Assembly (NCBI RefSeq): GCF_000021725.1
Contig: NC_012115.1
Span: 893,001-957,000 of the forward strand
Reading direction: 5' to 3'
DNA: 64,000 nucleotides
From: Nautilia profundicola AmH
GTDB lineage: Bacteria > Campylobacterota > Campylobacteria > Campylobacterales > Nautiliaceae
Part shown: piece by piece, positions 25,687-39,412 of the stretch
How positions within the stretch are numbered: position 1 is the first letter of the stretch
How the letters are laid out: each line of letters opens with the position of its first letter
Notes under the pieces: generated by a model
The model's database searches: none
Told to the model about the DNA's origin: nothing
The model's input: only the letters and a program-made list of their open reading frames with translations
Made by a program: the position numbers and the translations under genes

Positions 25687-27114
25687 TTAATTCGTTTTAT
25701 TTCCCTTCGTAAAATAATCAACATATGCATTTACATCAACATCGTCAATTTGTTCCGGTTTAAGATATTTTTTTGCATATTCCAAATAAATTCCACTTGT
25801 TAAAAACAACAAAAACAAATCTTTATCCAATTCCCCTTTTTTTACCATATCGGCCAATATATCAATGGCTTCAGAAAGTTTTTTAGGATGTTTATAAGGT
25901 CTGTCACTTGCGGTCAGCGCTTCGAATATATCTGCAATCGCCATAATTCTTGCAGGTATAGGCAAATCTTTTTCTGTCAGTTTTCTCGGATATCCTTTAC
26001 CGTTAAGTTTTTCATGATGTGCTCCTGCGTATATAGGAACATTTTTTAAATAATCTGGAAACGGTAGCTGTTCAAGCATTTTGATTGTCATCATTGCATG
26101 TTCTTGAATTTTAAAAAATTCTTCTTTTGTTAAAGTTCCCTTTTTTATACTTAAATTATAGACTTCTCCATAGTTGTACAAATTTTCCGGTATTTCGACT
26201 TTAAATCCGTATTTTTTATATTCTTCAATTTCCTCAGCAGGTCTTTTTATTTTATGTCTTTGTTTATCTGAAATTAATTTTTCCCTTACCGGCAATTTTT
26301 GGTTGAAATCTTCTTCAGGTATTCGTTCAATTTCTCCCTTGCTTAATCCCTTTGTATCGTCGAAATATCTAAGCCATTCTCTATTTGCTATATTTTGTAA
26401 TCTTTCTAACGTACTTTCTTCAATACTTTCGCTTCCGACATTTAGTTTGGCAATAAAATCAAAATCGTCTTGTAACTGTTTTTGTTCTTTTTTTAACCAT
26501 TCATCCACTTTCTTTTCATCTTCACCGTTCATTTTCCTCTTTAAAGCTTCTATAATAAGATCTCTGTTTATTACTTCGAATCTTGTTCTAATTTCGTGTA
26601 TTCTGTTATAAATTGTTTCTAATTTTACGGCTTTATCAACAACATACTCAGGTGTTACGATTTTTCCGCAATCATGAAGCCATGCTGCTATTGAAATTTC
26701 CGTTTCTTGCTGTTCGTTTTTGATTTCGAATTCAAACTTCTCACTCTGACTTGCCGCTTTAGCCAGTTCAATTGCAATTTCAGGAACCCTTTCACAATGT
26801 TTCCCGGTATAACTGCTTTTCGTATCTATCGCTTCTGCAATGATTTTAATAAAAGAATCTATTAATTTTTTCTGAGCTTTTTGAAGTTTTTCAACTTCTT
26901 CGAGTCTTTTTTGTAATTCGTCATACTCTTTTTTCTGTCTTTTATCCGAACGTAGCATAATTTTTTCATGACGTTTCAGGTCTTTGACAAATTTTTCCAT
27001 TAATTTTATAAAATTCTCTTTTTCCTCTTCCTCATGGATATATTGAGAATATTTCTCTTTTGCTTTTTCTATTTCTTTAATTAATTCATTTTCCGCCATT
27101 TTATTCTTCTTCAC
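25687..27114 (-). CDS. HD-GYP domain cyclic-di-GMP phosphodiesterase, copy a
   Basis: A 475-residue paralogue of the neighbouring gene, alike over its whole length: N-terminal coiled coil with MLRSDKRQKKEYDEL, HCERVPEI, AAWLHDCGK, the same long insertion, EHAMMTIKMLE, GAHHEKLNGKGYPRKL and ADIFEALTASDRPYK. The N-terminus is about 20 residues longer, with a Lys/Glu-rich helix. It overlaps the end of SiaC copy a by 14 bases. The pair SiaC-a/HD-GYP-a and the pair HD-GYP-b/SiaC-b arose by duplication, with the second pair in swapped order. Confidence 0.88.
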   Translation of the reverse strand: MKKNKMAENELIKEIEKAKEKYSQYIHEEEEKENFIKLMEKFVKDLKRHEKIMLRSDKRQKKEYDELQKRLEEVEKLQKAQKKLIDSFIKIIAEAIDTKSSYTGKHCERVPEIAIELAKAASQSEKFEFEIKNEQQETEISIAAWLHDCGKIVTPEYVVDKAVKLETIYNRIHEIRTRFEVINRDLIIEALKRKMNGEDEKKVDEWLKKEQKQLQDDFDFIAKLNVGSESIEESTLERLQNIANREWLRYFDDTKGLSKGEIERIPEEDFNQKLPVREKLISDKQRHKIKRPAEEIEEYKKYGFKVEIPENLYNYGEVYNLSIKKGTLTKEEFFKIQEHAMMTIKMLEQLPFPDYLKNVPIYAGAHHEKLNGKGYPRKLTEKDLPIPARIMAIADIFEALTASDRPYKHPKKLSEAIDILADMVKKGELDKDLFLLFLTSGIYLEYAKKYLKPEQIDDVDVNAYVDYFTKGNKTN

Positions 27115-27490
27115 TCTTTTTTATTAAATTAATATTTAATTCAGGGAAATCTTCTTTAAAATCTTCTCCGGCTTCTTCGGCACTTTCATTTTCTTCATCG
27201 TAAATCCAGTTTATCGTAATATTATTTTTCTCTTTTGCTTCTTGTAGGATGTCAAACAAATCAAACAATACTTTTGAGCTGCTTGAATTAAAATATATTA
27301 TTTCAAAATTTACCACCGTATTATCTTTTGCACAGCAATTAAAGTACTCTTCTATCCATTTTAACACCGGTTCATAAAAGTCAAACGTATTTTCAGGATA
27401 TGATTTCCCTCTTATTTCAATTATCCCCTTTTCCGCATTTAACGATATTTCAGGCGTATATTTTGTTGCGGGTATATACAAATTTTCCAT
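27101..27490 (-). CDS. SiaC-family regulatory phosphoprotein (DUF1987), copy a
   Basis: A 129-residue paralogue of the SiaC protein at 23.8 kb: KYTPEISLNAEKGIIEIRGKSYPENTFDFY and YFNSSSSK at 66-73. The residue matching Thr70 of copy b is Ser71, so it may still be phosphorylated but could be recognised differently by kinase or phosphatase. It heads the transcript with HD-GYP copy a. AAAAGGAATAGG lies just before the ATG. Confidence 0.9.
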   Translation of the reverse strand: MENLYIPATKYTPEISLNAEKGIIEIRGKSYPENTFDFYEPVLKWIEEYFNCCAKDNTVVNFEIIYFNSSSSKVLFDLFDILQEAKEKNNITINWIYDEENESAEEAGEDFKEDFPELNINLIKKSEEE

Positions 27491-30493: not shown

Positions 30494-32023
30494 ATGAAAG
30501 TAACAATAGATCCGGTAACACGTATTGAAGGTCACCTTAAAGTCGAAACGGTGATTGAAGATTCAGTCATTAAAGAGGCTAAATGCAGTGCCGACATGTA
30601 CAGAGGAATTGAAAAAGCTTTAAGAGGCTATGATTATCTAACAGCAATACAAATTACACAAAGAACATGCGGATGCTGTCCTTACGCTCATGCTGAAGCT
30701 GCCGCACTCGCAATCGAAAACGCCTTGCAAATTGAACTTAACAAAAACGGTAAACTTTTAAGAAATATGGTAATCGGTGCCTATAAATTAAAAGATTACG
30801 TTTTGCATTTTTACACTTTAAGCGCATTGGATTTTATAAATATATCCGATATTTTAAATTATAACGGTAATGATTTTGACATGTTGGAATTAAAAAAATA
30901 CGTTCTTAAAGAGATCTCATCAAAAAAAGTTTTTCCAAATCCTCTTTTTTCACAAAAATACAAAAACGCATATATTAAAAACAAAGATTTAAATATAACT
31001 TTAATAAATCATTATCTGAAAAGTTTTGAAGCTATGAAAAAAATGTCTGAAATGGTTAAAATTTTCGGTTCAAAATCAACGCACATGGTAACCATTGAAG
31101 CCGGCGGAGTCACTACAAGACCTACAGCTGAAAGACTTGTTAAATATATTTCATTGGCAAAAGAATCACAACACTTTATAGAACACTGCTATATACCTGA
31201 TGTTTTGGAAGTAGCTAAACGGTTTAAAGAATATTTTAAAATAGGTAAAGGCGTAGACAACTTCTTAACCTTCGACACTCTTTTAAATCTTGACGGAAGT
31301 TATTTGTTTACCGGAGGATTTAGCAAAGATTTTGAATATGAAGAAGGTATTGAGCCTTATAATATAATTGAATACAACAACTACGCATATTATAAGGAAA
31401 ACGGAGGATATAAGCCGTTAGAACTTACTGAATTAACTCCCCTAACCTTTGACGAGTTTAAACAAAACCATACAAAATATTCATGGTCAAAAGCTCCGAG
31501 GTACAAAGGTCATGTTGTGGAAGTAGGACCTGCAGCGATAGTAATTAACAATTATTTAAGAGGAAAAGACGAAAAACTGATTTCTCTTGTTGATAAATTC
31601 AACAGAGAACTCGGAATTGATATAAAAGATTATAATTCGGTTATGGGAAGACATCTTTCAAGAGCGATAATCAGTAAATTAATAATCGATAAAATTATTG
31701 AAGATTCTTTAATGGTGGAGGAAGGAAAGTTAGGTTTTATTCAGTTAAAAAAACCTCCGTCAAACGTAAAAGGTATTGGACTTACGGAAGCTACAAGAGG
31801 AGCGCTTGCTCATTTTATCGATATTGGTGAAAACGGATATATAAGAAACTATGAAATGATTGTACCTACAACATGGAATATTTCACCAAAAGACAACCAA
31901 AACATCCCAGGTGCACTTGAAAGTATGTTAATCGGTACTGAAATCAGAGATATCAACAACCCTGTAGAAATAGCAAGAATTATAAGAAGCACAGACCCGT
32001 GCCTTGCTTGTGCGGTGCATTAA
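30494..32023 (+). CDS. NiFe hydrogenase large subunit without C-terminal extension (probable H2 sensor)
   Basis: A 509-residue catalytic subunit of an NiFe hydrogenase. The four nickel-binding cysteines are in RTCGCCPYAH (Cys59, Cys62) and DPCLACAVH (Cys503, Cys506); DPVTRIEGHLKVE near the start is typical. The stop codon follows directly after the last histidine of the second motif. Ordinary enzymes carry about 15 extra residues there that an endopeptidase removes; their absence is known from H2-sensing hydrogenases (HupV/HoxC type). It is the first gene of a tight operon with the small subunit and a haem-binding chemoreceptor, which supports a sensory role. AAAAAGGA precedes the ATG. Confidence 0.93.
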   Translation: MKVTIDPVTRIEGHLKVETVIEDSVIKEAKCSADMYRGIEKALRGYDYLTAIQITQRTCGCCPYAHAEAAALAIENALQIELNKNGKLLRNMVIGAYKLKDYVLHFYTLSALDFINISDILNYNGNDFDMLELKKYVLKEISSKKVFPNPLFSQKYKNAYIKNKDLNITLINHYLKSFEAMKKMSEMVKIFGSKSTHMVTIEAGGVTTRPTAERLVKYISLAKESQHFIEHCYIPDVLEVAKRFKEYFKIGKGVDNFLTFDTLLNLDGSYLFTGGFSKDFEYEEGIEPYNIIEYNNYAYYKENGGYKPLELTELTPLTFDEFKQNHTKYSWSKAPRYKGHVVEVGPAAIVINNYLRGKDEKLISLVDKFNRELGIDIKDYNSVMGRHLSRAIISKLIIDKIIEDSLMVEEGKLGFIQLKKPPSNVKGIGLTEATRGALAHFIDIGENGYIRNYEMIVPTTWNISPKDNQNIPGALESMLIGTEIRDINNPVEIARIIRSTDPCLACAVH

Positions 32024-32032
32024 GGAGAAAGG

Positions 32033-32953
32033 ATGGATAGAAGAGAGTTTTTAAAAAATGTTCATAATTTATTGGTTGCAATAGGTGGAAGCAGCTTTTT
32101 TACGATGGAAGAACTTGAAGCCTTTGACGAGACAGATGACAGACCGGATATAATATGGCTACAGGCACTTAGCTGTGACGGGTGCAGTGTAAACTTTTTA
32201 AATGCTGAAATACCGGTGACTGAAATATTAAACAGATTTGCAAACATTGTGTTTCATCCGACGATAATGGCATCAGACGGCAAGGAAGCTATGGATATAT
32301 TAATGAATTATAAAAGCGACAACATGATACTTGTCGTAGAAGGAGCAATTCCTACCGCAATGCCTCATGCATGTATGATGGGTGAAATGTTTGTAAACGA
32401 TATAATTTTAAAAAAAGCAAAAGAAGCAAAAGCAATCGTAGCAGCCGGAACTTGTGCGACATTTGCCGGAATATGCGATATGAAAAATATGTACACCAAA
32501 GCCGGAAGCGTAAAATATTTTCTTGAAACCAATAATATAAACACCCCTGTAGTCAACCTTCCAACATGTCCTATGAAACCGAAACACCTGCTTTATACAC
32601 TGTTTTATTATATTAAACACAAATCTTTACCGCCTCTTGATATGTCACACCGCCCTATTAAATTCTTCTCAAACACAATACACGAAAGATGTATTTACTA
32701 CAATGATTACCAACAAAACATTTTCGCTAAAAAAATCGGAGACAGGGGCTGTCTATTTAAATTAGGATGTCAAGGTCCTGTAACAAAAAATGACTGTGTA
32801 AAAAGTACAGGCGAATATGACAAGTATAACTGTATTAAATCCGGGCATCCGTGCGTAGGATGCGGCAGTGAGAATTTCCCGAGAACAATCATGTTTAAAA
32901 GAAGCGACGATAAAAGAGAGATAGAAAAATATAAAACCTTTAAAAGGATTTAG
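32033..32953 (+). CDS. NiFe hydrogenase small subunit with Tat-like signal
   Basis: A 306-residue electron-transfer subunit. The start [19 protein letters not shown] resembles a twin-arginine signal (RREFLK), pointing to export of the folded dimer. Proximal-cluster cysteines are in SCDGCSVN (48, 51), GTCATFAG and LPTCPM; the middle and distal clusters are served by [22 protein letters not shown] and [12 protein letters not shown]. It ends without a membrane anchor. It follows the large-subunit gene by nine bases (large before small, the reverse of the usual order) and precedes the chemoreceptor by two bases. Confidence 0.92.
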
Positions 32954-32955
32954 TT

Positions 32956-34719
32956 ATGAATGATTTTTTTAAATCCAGAATGTTTATTGAAAACATACTT
33001 ATACCTTTTTTATTAATGAGCGTATTAATAGGAGCTTTTTTTTATGTTAGTAAATTATTTGCAACTAAATATGAAAAAGAAAAACTCAATCAGTACGTCT
33101 ATGAAATTATGAAAACTTATAAAACTTTTTCAAAAAGCTCCCTTGAAAAAGGACAAAGAGAACCGTTTATAGAAGTGATCAGAGGAATAAAAGACATTGC
33201 GGGTGTTAAAAATGTTTACGCATATAATAATAACGGTTTGATGTTATATAAAAATACGGAAAAAACCGTCGGTTTGCCGTTTGTTAAAAAAGACGGACAG
33301 TTTTATAATCCAAATATTCCGTATTATGACAAATCTAACGGCTTATGGTTAAGGGATGACTGGTTTTATACCGATCTGAAAAATTCCAAAATAACTAAAG
33401 AATGTATGAAAAAACATAATATAAACAATAAAAACTGTGCAAAATGCCACTACTCCTTGCCTAATAATCTTCATTTTAAAAACAATTACGCTGTTGTAGA
33501 TAAAAAAAACCTCATTTCATCGTTTTATAAAATACCTGTACAAAACAGCTGTATCAAATGCCATACACACTGGCATAAAGGTGACACGGCCGGATATTTA
33601 AGAGTGGATATAGACCCGACCGGTAAGATAAAAGAAATAAATTCACTGCTTACAAAAGTAAATATAGGAATAATTATAATAATCGCATTGGTTTATTTAA
33701 TTAACATCGCGAATATTTTGCGACTAAGACAAAAACTTGTTTTATTTAAAACTATTTCCCAGCATTTATCGGAAGGTGAAGGAGATTTAACAAAAAGAGT
33801 AGAAATCGATACTAAAGACGAAACACTTCAAAGCGTTGCAAAATATTTGAACCTTTTTATTGAAAAAACCCATGATATTGTAAGCAATATCAAATCATCC
33901 ATTGAAATTTCTCTTTCAACTGCAAATGAAGTGGAAAAAGCAAGCGAAACAATTAAAAAAGTAATAGACGACCAGGTGAAATTAATAGAAAAAAACAAAA
34001 AAATCGGTGAAAAAATCAATGAAGACGTATTAATAACCAATAATGCTATTACAGAAGCGACAGATGAAATAAAAAAATCTTACGAGTTATTAAACAATAC
34101 ATTTGAAGAACTGAATAAAATGGTGGAAGATATTCAAAACGAGTCTAACAACGAATTAACCCTCGCAGAAAAAATCACCGATCTTGTAAATCAAAGCGAA
34201 CAAATCAAATCCATACTGGAAATAATTAAAGAAATTGCCGACCAGACAAACCTATTAGCTTTAAATGCCGCTATTGAAGCCGCAAGAGCCGGCGAACACG
34301 GAAGAGGATTTGCAGTTGTCGCCGATGAGGTAAGAAAATTAGCTGAAAGAACACAAAAAAGTTTAGGAGAAATTGAATCCGTCAGTACATTAATCGTACA
34401 AGGAATTGAAAACATACAAATCGAAATACAAAACAATGCAAAATTTGCGCTTAATAATTCAGAAAAAACACAAGAATTGGCACAAAAAACCAACATCGTT
34501 ATGGATAACCTTTCAAAAAGTGTGCAAAAAGCCGAAATGGCTACAAAAGAAACAAAAAATATTCAAACCAGTGTAGATGAGCTTGCCGAAGCTTCAAAAG
34601 AACTTACAAAACAAGCTAAAATCAGTGAAGAAATAGGTAAAAAACTTGCCAGAATTTCTCTTACATTAAAAAGAGTGATGAATAATATTCAAACTATTGC
34701 AAATAAATTTAAAACATAA
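32956..34719 (+). CDS. Methyl-accepting chemotaxis protein with periplasmic di-haem c domain
   Basis: A 587-residue chemoreceptor: transmembrane helix about 12-34, periplasmic domain to about 235, second helix about 237-256, HAMP (GEGDLTKRV), and a full signalling domain with the hairpin tip [29 protein letters not shown] at about 426-454. The periplasmic domain has two covalent haem motifs, CAKCH (161-165) and CIKCH (199-203). It starts two bases after the hydrogenase small subunit. I infer that electrons from H2 oxidation by the exported hydrogenase reduce these haems and so change kinase output, giving taxis toward hydrogen. Haem-c chemoreceptors are known (DcrA of Desulfovibrio, Geobacter sensors), but not with a hydrogenase as partner to my knowledge. 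Confidence 0.93.
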
Positions 34720-37416: not shown

Positions 37417-38781
37417 GTGAAAACCTTATCATTAAATAAAATATATCTCGGAGGGGTTTCCCTTCTATTTATTTTATCGGTTATTTTTACATCATTAGCT
37501 ATCTTCGAAGAATACAGGGACTTTGAAAGAGAAACTGTAAAAATTAAACAGGAATTTATTCAAAAAACAAATCAAAAACTGCAACTGACCGCACATAAAA
37601 TTGATCAAATATTAAAAATATCTCCTAATAATTACATACAAATTTTAAACATTATTTTGGATAAATCGATATATGTTGAAATTAAAAAAAATAACAAAAC
37701 TATTTTCATACACTCAAACCCTCCTAAAAAACCGATTTCATATACACTTAATGACAATAACTTCATTATAACCCTTCAAGATTCTTTTTCTAAAATAGAA
37801 AAACTGATTAAAGAAAAGAAAAAAGCTCTCATACACAAACTGACTAAAACAATGCTAAACTTTTTAACTTTAGCATTCATAATATACATGTCGGCACTTG
37901 GAGGATTTTATCTTCTGAACGAATTTTTAAAAGAAGAAATAAATATATTCGTAAAATTTTTCCAAAAAGCTTACCAGGAACATATATACATTAAATTCAG
38001 TGATATTAAAATAAAAGAATTTTTAAATATTGCCGTATATGTAAATAAAATGCTAAAAGAAATCAACTCTCAAAACAAAAAATTAGAAAGATTAAATTTA
38101 ACACTTGAAGAAAAAGTACGTCAAAAAACAAGAAAACTTCAAAACCTAATAAATGAACAGGAAAATTTCATCAAAACAGCTATACATGAAATAAATACAC
38201 CGCTTGCTATAATCCTGACATCTCTTAATTTTCTTGATAAAAACGACAAAAATGTTCAAAGAATAGAATCCGCAGTGCTTATGATAAACAATATTTATGC
38301 TGATTTAAGTTTTGTTTTAAAATATAAACACAAAGACTACCCTTTACAGATCATAAATATAAAAGATGTATTAACCGAAAGAATACAATTCTTCGAAACA
38401 ATAGCAAACGCAAAGAAATTAAAATTCGAATATGAAATTAATGATTTTAACGTATGTATCAATAAAGAAGAATTAATCAGAATAATAGACAACAACCTTT
38501 CAAACGCTATTAAATATTCAATTCCGAACTCTACAGTAAAAATTAAAACCGGCAACAATACTTTAATTTTTGAAAACAAAACAAATGAAATAAACAATAT
38601 AGATAAATTTTTCGAACCTTTTTATAAGGAACACGAAAATACTTCAGGTTTTGGACTTGGACTTTATTTAGTCAATGAAATATGTAAAAAATACAATATT
38701 AAAGTCACAATATCACATAAAGATAATATAATAATGTTTGAATATCAATTTAAGGAATGTAATGAAAATAGTCTTGGTTGA
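37417..38781 (+). CDS. Membrane sensor histidine kinase
   Basis: A 454-residue kinase: helices at about 9-29 and 146-170 enclose a small periplasmic domain of about 115 residues, then a coiled coil, the phospho-acceptor box AIHEINTPLAIIL (His257), the N box NNLSNAIKYS and the G box FGLGLYLVNEIC. The start is a GTG one base after the acs stop and the end overlaps the response regulator gene by 20 bases, so acs and the two-component pair form one transcript. The signal is probably acetate or another short carboxylate, judging only by the neighbours. Confidence 0.9.
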   Translation: MKTLSLNKIYLGGVSLLFILSVIFTSLAIFEEYRDFERETVKIKQEFIQKTNQKLQLTAHKIDQILKISPNNYIQILNIILDKSIYVEIKKNNKTIFIHSNPPKKPISYTLNDNNFIITLQDSFSKIEKLIKEKKKALIHKLTKTMLNFLTLAFIIYMSALGGFYLLNEFLKEEINIFVKFFQKAYQEHIYIKFSDIKIKEFLNIAVYVNKMLKEINSQNKKLERLNLTLEEKVRQKTRKLQNLINEQENFIKTAIHEINTPLAIILTSLNFLDKNDKNVQRIESAVLMINNIYADLSFVLKYKHKDYPLQIINIKDVLTERIQFFETIANAKKLKFEYEINDFNVCINKEELIRIIDNNLSNAIKYSIPNSTVKIKTGNNTLIFENKTNEINNIDKFFEPFYKEHENTSGFGLGLYLVNEICKKYNIKVTISHKDNIIMFEYQFKECNENSLG

Positions 38782-39412
38782 GGATGAATACTCTCTAAAC
38801 GAAATAATCACCGAATATCTTGAAAAAGAAGGATATTTTGTAAAGTCGTTTATTGACGGTAAAGACGCCTATGAATATTTGAAAAAGGAGAATTTCGATA
38901 TTCTTATATTAGATATTCACCTTCCGAATATTGACGGATTTTCCATCTTAGAAGCACTGCAAAAAGAAAAACTCTCACCACCAACAATATTCATCAGTGC
39001 CATGAACAGTATTGAACATATTACGAAAGCTTATGATTTAGGATGTTTCGATTATTTTAAAAAACCTTTTTATCTTCAAGAATTACATATTAAAATAGAA
39101 AGATTGGGAAGCCAGCTAAATCCAAACGAAAAAAATTTCATCAAACTGTCTAAAAGATATAAATTCGATGTACAAAACAACGAATTATTATTTGATAATT
39201 CTCAGGAAATATTAAGCAACATACATAGAAATATAATAAAACTACTTGCTCTGAATAAAGGCAAAAGTGTAACTTTTGAGATGTTAAGAGACGACATATG
39301 GGAAGGGGAAGTAGACAATGCCACTATAAGAGCGGAAATCAGCCGTCTTAAAAAATCTCTTAAAGAAGACTTCATTCAGAATATAAGAGGAGTCGGATAC
39401 ATTATCAAATAG
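38762..39412 (+). CDS. OmpR-family response regulator
   Basis: A 216-residue regulator: receiver domain starting KIVLVEDEYSLNE with phospho-acceptor Asp51 in LILDIHLPNIDGF and the switch lysine in FDYFKKPF, then a winged-helix DNA-binding domain ending SRLKKSLKEDFIQNIRGVGYIIK. The ATG at 38762 has AAGGA upstream; a farther in-frame ATG at 38738 is less likely. OmpR-type proteins bind direct repeats about 11 bp apart, which is exactly the spacing found before acs, DUF485-actP and oadGAB, so this is their likely regulator. Confidence 0.92.
   Translation: MKIVLVEDEYSLNEIITEYLEKEGYFVKSFIDGKDAYEYLKKENFDILILDIHLPNIDGFSILEALQKEKLSPPTIFISAMNSIEHITKAYDLGCFDYFKKPFYLQELHIKIERLGSQLNPNEKNFIKLSKRYKFDVQNNELLFDNSQEILSNIHRNIIKLLALNKGKSVTFEMLRDDIWEGEVDNATIRAEISRLKKSLKEDFIQNIRGVGYIIK

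Follow-up and report, generated by a model that had tools for sequence, protein, structure and literature searches.

Why should a hydrogenase be encoded in one tight run with a haem-bearing chemoreceptor? In the window (the whole 64,000-nucleotide stretch of DNA that we analyzed, from the deep-sea vent bacterium Nautilia profundicola AmH), three co-directional plus-strand genes encode the large and small subunits of a [NiFe] hydrogenase and a chemoreceptor (MCP), and the original prediction had read them as a single hydrogen-sensing unit. Evaluating its descriptive claims, we found the trio with its gaps of 9 and 2 bases borne out by the open reading frame coordinates and Pfam matches, the Tat-like small-subunit start present as MDRREFLK with invariant arginines, and both receptor CxxCH motifs (residues 161-165 and 199-203) in place between predicted transmembrane helices. 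We interpret the trio as probably forming one H2-chemosensory unit, in which hydrogenase electrons would reach the receptor haems and then CheA to drive hydrogen taxis. The odds seem to us about even that a dedicated periplasmic [NiFe] hydrogenase feeds electrons to the chemoreceptor via the added haem, as an enzyme-wired form of hydrogen taxis.

Features of the hydrogenase-chemoreceptor trio, in window coordinates
Feature	Coordinates	Strand	Evidence
[NiFe] hydrogenase large subunit, 509 aa	30494..32023	+	PF00374 (NiFeSe_Hases), E 5.6e-126
Hydrogenase small subunit, 306 aa	32033..32953	+	PF01058 (Oxidored_q6), 5e-23; PF14720 (NiFe_hyd_SSU_C), 4e-19
Twin-arginine codons R3 R4 of Tat-type signal MDRREFLK	32039..32044	+	RR in 14/14 clade members
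Cys 255, 267, 274 and 277, expected medial [4Fe-4S] ligands	32795..32863	+	Conserved 14/14; alignment to NiFeSe enzyme
Chemoreceptor (MCP), 587 aa	32956..34719	+	PF00015 (MCPsignal), E 2.8e-35
Insertion, about residues 100-170, in haem-Cache-like domain	33253..33465	+	Alignment and profile-profile comparison
CxxCH 161-165 (CAKCH), putative extra haem site	33436..33450	+	Invariant in 12/12 sensors
CxxCH 199-203 (CIKCH), haem-Cache position before last strand	33550..33564	+	Invariant in di-haem and one-haem sensors
MCP signalling domain, residues 405-553	34168..34614	+	Pfam MCPsignal

Scans for promoters and terminators gave no informative result. Other signalling genes lie near the trio. These include a SiaC-family phosphoprotein gene paired with an HD_5-domain protein gene (window 25687-27490, minus strand) and, 2.7 kb downstream of the receptor, a histidine kinase gene with a response regulator gene (window 37417-39412); L043 alone among the trio loci viewed outside the window has a similar response regulator close by.

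Assessing the hydrogenase first by its closest relatives, we found best matches to group 1 and NiFeSe enzymes, with the D. vulgaris [NiFeSe] small subunit (2wpn, 5e-44) as the best solved relative of the small subunit. Both NiFe-site CxxC pairs of the large subunit are present (C59/C62 and C503/C506), its C-terminal active-site cysteines are encoded by TGC and TGT rather than TGA, and the curated NiFeSe models scored below their cut-offs (481.8 against 600, 367.5 against 780 and 209.9 against 470). With cysteine codons and no selenocysteine, the NiFeSe label for 30494-32023 was rejected. The available portion of the 2009 genome paper annotates these genes as NiFeSe, a soluble periplasmic uptake hydrogenase, and in that portion draws no link between the hydrogenase and the adjoining chemoreceptor gene (PMC2628731); its reading as a plain NiFeSe uptake hydrogenase is corrected here.

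A feature missed by the original prediction is that the large subunit stops at the final His of DPCLACAVH and has no C-terminal (cleavable) extension. The motif DPC[LI]AC[AS]VH forms the C-terminal end in 15/15 large subunits of the clade, and the extension is present in 63 of 66 outgroup large subunits, often with a putative maturation-peptidase gene alongside (judged from protein starts only). Because clade members that have no receptor also end in this way, we do not take the missing extension as proof of sensing. The outgroup large subunits of L083, L085 and L093, from Dehalococcoidia and actinobacterial MAGs, likewise end at the last His, so that the extension seems to have been lost on more than one occasion.

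The small subunit bears on where the electrons might go. With four cysteines conserved around its medial cluster it has, to judge from sequence, ligands for three [4Fe-4S] clusters, and its RR motif, together with a TatC encoded in the N. profundicola genome, makes it a candidate Tat substrate. Since the RR start is invariant, no C-terminal anchor or transmembrane segment is predicted in any small subunit of the clade and none of the trio loci viewed has a cytochrome gene next to the three genes, the receptor stands as the one electron acceptor adjacent to the hydrogenase.

This receptor has what identifies an MCP, namely an MCPsignal domain (with a canonical signalling tip), two transmembrane helices predicted at residues 14-32 and 237-255, and Che proteins in the same genome, where CheW-domain proteins of CheA, CheW and CheV size are encoded along with a cytochrome c assembly protein. 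The helices flank a domain that is predicted to be periplasmic, which runs against the cytoplasm-facing arrangement that the original prediction had named as incompatible with its proposal. N. profundicola is described as highly motile and as having 11 MCPs in the available portion of its genome paper (PMC2628731).

To place the sensor domain, we compared its profile with that of a one-haem sensor family that occurs in other chemoreceptors and in GGDEF-EAL proteins of Campylobacterota, and found the two to match at 98% probability (E 1e-13). Alignment and profile-profile comparison agreed that the insertion bearing the first CxxCH is missing from the one-haem relatives, and in the searched Campylobacterota the trio receptor family was the only one found to have the extra CxxCH. 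In an AF2 model (mean pLDDT 76.5, with the inserted segment at low confidence; a second model with one-haem relatives added reached 74.2 and was not better), a helix at 197-200 is followed by a strand at 211-219, such that a short helix preceding the last strand is modelled as the place of CxxCH 199-203; the motif of sCache_heme domains is described as lying in the element that precedes the final strand (PMC12889525). Foldseek ranked WalK sCache domains at the top and placed the known haem domains GSU0582, GSU0935 and Tll0287 (3b47, 3b42 and 5b82) further down, with no match significant at E<=0.001. Searching the sequences of solved structures by means of the sensor profiles gave no match, and Pfam did not place the domain in any family: 9/12 sensors matched PF11845 (DUF3365/Tll0287), with a best E of only 0.087 that did not reach the cut-off. 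We conclude that the domain likely has a Cache fold, that its assignment to PF11845 is unsupported by Pfam score, and that it is probably a haem-Cache-like sensor, related to the common one-haem sensors, with an inserted second haem site. One-haem periplasmic sensors that PF11845 did not report are also carried by L130, L134 and L148 (MCP-type) and by L131, L140 and L144 (GGDEF-EAL).

The original prediction had proposed looking for the same trio in other genomes, and a survey of 100 genomes from the order and 397 from the phylum, together with a peptide-pattern search of 84,980 species genomes, revealed that it recurs, in identical order, tightly spaced and with exactly two sensor CxxCH motifs, in 11 Campylobacterota species from Nautiliaceae, Sulfurimonadaceae and one further family (the window, G048, L043/G591, L045/G336, L044/G009, L049/G239, L050/G545, L052/G527, L046/G529, L051 and G290, with loci paired to genomes by matching contig coordinates; L048 is truncated by a contig end). 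These 11 species contradict the possibility, raised by the original prediction against itself, that homologous hydrogenases never sit beside haem receptors. The flanking genes differ between most trio loci. At L043 they are the same as in the window with the trio inverted, and at L050, L052 and G290 the trio lies beside hydrogenase maturation genes (hypA, hypE-type and hypX-type).

Within the 397 Campylobacterota genomes, the hydrogenase clade occurred in 8, the di-haem receptor in 7 and both in 6. Sulfurimonadaceae (200 genomes) had both parts in the same 5 genomes and Nautiliaceae (21 genomes) in the same 4, so that, taking the two families together, the receptor stood directly beside the hydrogenase in 9/9 carriers and neither was found in the other 212; the p-values for these associations (Fisher p 4e-11 for the phylum and p 3e-16 for the two families) overstate independence, as the genomes are related. 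Each family shows a patchy distribution, with hydrogenase and receptor present or absent together. Co-occurrence, which the original prediction had proposed to test, held almost perfectly. Co-evolution, proposed for testing alongside it, showed poorly within Nautiliales: sensor and hydrogenase distances correlated at r of about 0.97 across all 11 trios, mostly reflecting a two-clade split, and at only a weak r of 0.25-0.42 within Nautiliales, and we therefore do not claim residue-level co-evolution. Columns specific to receptor-linked hydrogenases numbered 10 in the large subunit, where several are lysines in the trio, and 4 in the small subunit, and we do not rely on them, as there are only three receptor-less members for comparison and two of these are closely related.

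The departures from this pairing are few. Two Sulfurospirillum-type genomes and one SAR324 genome carry the hydrogenase but not the receptor, and one genome (G023) has a di-haem receptor without a detectable hydrogenase of the clade. In the large-subunit tree the receptor-less members nest inside the clade, which means that either these members lost or replaced the receptor or it was acquired at least twice. The G023 receptor gene (L153:8269-10041) has the start of an IS110-like transposase just upstream, at the contig edge. In the Sulfurospirillum-type loci (L040:4751-10803 and L047:6408-12476), the extension-less hydrogenase directly follows a set of genes for a molybdopterin oxidoreductase with a twin-arginine start, its multi-cluster Fe-S subunit and a TorD/nitrate-reductase-delta-type chaperone; this unit is possibly an H2-fed periplasmic reductase. 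Such a reductase in place of the receptor suggests that the clade hands electrons to different periplasmic partners.

With a hydrogenase predicted to be exported, a low-potential relay, no other outlet in the operon and a near-constant neighbour that has acquired an extra haem site, an electron path from enzyme to receptor is the simplest reading. Both hydrogenase subunits would mature in the cytoplasm, leave folded via Tat and dock on the periplasmic face of the receptor. There the NiFe site would oxidise H2, and the electrons would pass through three [4Fe-4S] clusters to the haem of the inserted segment and on to the canonical Cache-like haem, whose reduction would alter haem ligation and domain shape and send a signal across the second transmembrane helix, shifting CheA activity such that cells gather where H2 is available. 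The H2 couple lies at about -414 mV at pH 7. Periplasmic haem-c receptors of Geobacter have potentials of -156 and -251 mV (PMC8396549), so that electron transfer to haems of this type would run downhill. What the analysis shows directly is the three genes, how they are conserved and linked, their topology features and cofactor ligands, and the kinship of the receptor to one-haem sensors; from these we infer the complex, the electron path, the effect on CheA and the attraction to H2; the single H2-sensing unit of the original prediction accordingly came through the genomic tests (recurrence, co-occurrence and a predicted periplasmic domain), with its relay and its taxis standing as interpretation.

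The main rival to H2 sensing, which we hold to be unlikely, is a reductive priming in which the hydrogenase keeps the haems reduced and the true signal is a haem ligand or oxidant (NO, O2, or a sulfur or metal acceptor), such that the receptor binds the ligand or reports its oxidation and the cell tracks redox balance rather than H2. Related haem-Cache domains on signalling modules do show NO-sensor properties (PMC12889525), and Geobacter haem receptors have been interpreted as redox sensors (PMC8396549), but sensing of NO or another oxidant leaves unexplained why the extra haem occurs only in hydrogenase-linked receptors, and many one-haem receptors manage without an adjoining hydrogenase. 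It is improbable, in our estimate, that H2 binding at the NiFe site is instead relayed by a change of shape while the haems serve another role: the regulatory hydrogenase is found in complex with its kinase and has no known electron acceptor, yet the two invariant haem sites and the full three-cluster relay seen here favour electron transfer. More doubtful again is an uptake enzyme for which the receptor is mainly a membrane anchor and an outlet to periplasmic cytochromes, with signalling as a by-product (energy taxis); the soluble periplasmic uptake hydrogenase named in the available portion of the genome paper (PMC2628731) would fit this, but the trio receptors that we aligned retain a signalling domain with a canonical tip. 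Finally, that an uptake hydrogenase merely came to lie beside an unrelated chemoreceptor by chance, as the one orphan receptor (G023) and the three receptor-less clade members might hint, is very improbable and was rejected, being strongly disfavoured by conservation of the trio in eleven species and by the 9/9 co-occurrence in two families.

Returning to hydrogen sensing through electron transfer, we compared the trio with known systems. NiFe regulatory hydrogenases pass their signal to histidine kinases; the large subunit of the regulatory hydrogenase has no C-terminal extension (PMC7294309), and it and the [NiFeSe] enzymes have three [4Fe-4S] clusters each (PMC5665086). The trio resembles HoxBC/HupUV (group 2b) with HoxJ in its sensor role (proposed here), its lack of an extension and its three [4Fe-4S] clusters (here by ligand prediction), whereas HoxBC/HupUV belongs to group 2, is cytoplasmic with no export signal and is partnered by the PAS histidine kinase HoxJ, and the trio hydrogenase is group-1-like, has the invariant RR start and is partnered by a haem-bearing MCP. 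It may thus work like a regulatory hydrogenase without being one, given its different ancestry, location signal and partner. The closest solved relatives of both subunits are the Desulfovibrio periplasmic [NiFeSe] and [NiFe] hydrogenases (2wpn and 1e3d), from which the trio differs by its cysteine codons with no selenocysteine, its missing extension and the receptor partner in its operon. On the receptor side, GSU0582, GSU0935, DcrA and sCache_heme resemble the trio receptor in MCP output and in a periplasmic sensor of Cache type (likely for the trio) whose CxxCH precedes the final strand (as modelled for the trio), and the trio differs by a second CxxCH in an insertion and a hydrogenase in the operon. 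HydDB labels [FeFe] group C2 'Chemotactic (putative)', and this too is a hydrogenase linked to a methyl-accepting chemotaxis protein, but it is an unrelated protein with an H-cluster, in contrast to an exported-type NiFe enzyme whose receptor is a separate protein with two haem sites. The original statement that no such relay was known therefore needs qualifying by these [FeFe] C2 and NiFe regulatory precedents, while our partial literature search found no description of a NiFe hydrogenase with a haem receptor; as far as we found, the pairing is new for NiFe hydrogenases. Swimming toward H2, as proposed here, has a likeness in the hydrogenotaxis of Methanococcus maripaludis, an archaeon (Brileya 2013, via the available portion of PMC4266047), for which no receptor was named in the literature searched.

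To summarize the biology, many vent and sediment bacteria draw their energy mainly from H2, and H2 taxis has been reported, with its receptor not named in the literature that we searched. The trio offers a concrete, conserved candidate for an H2-taxis receptor in a sequenced isolate that has been called highly motile. If this is true, it would represent a new kind of H2-taxis receptor, one that is driven by the electrons of an enzyme rather than by a bound ligand.
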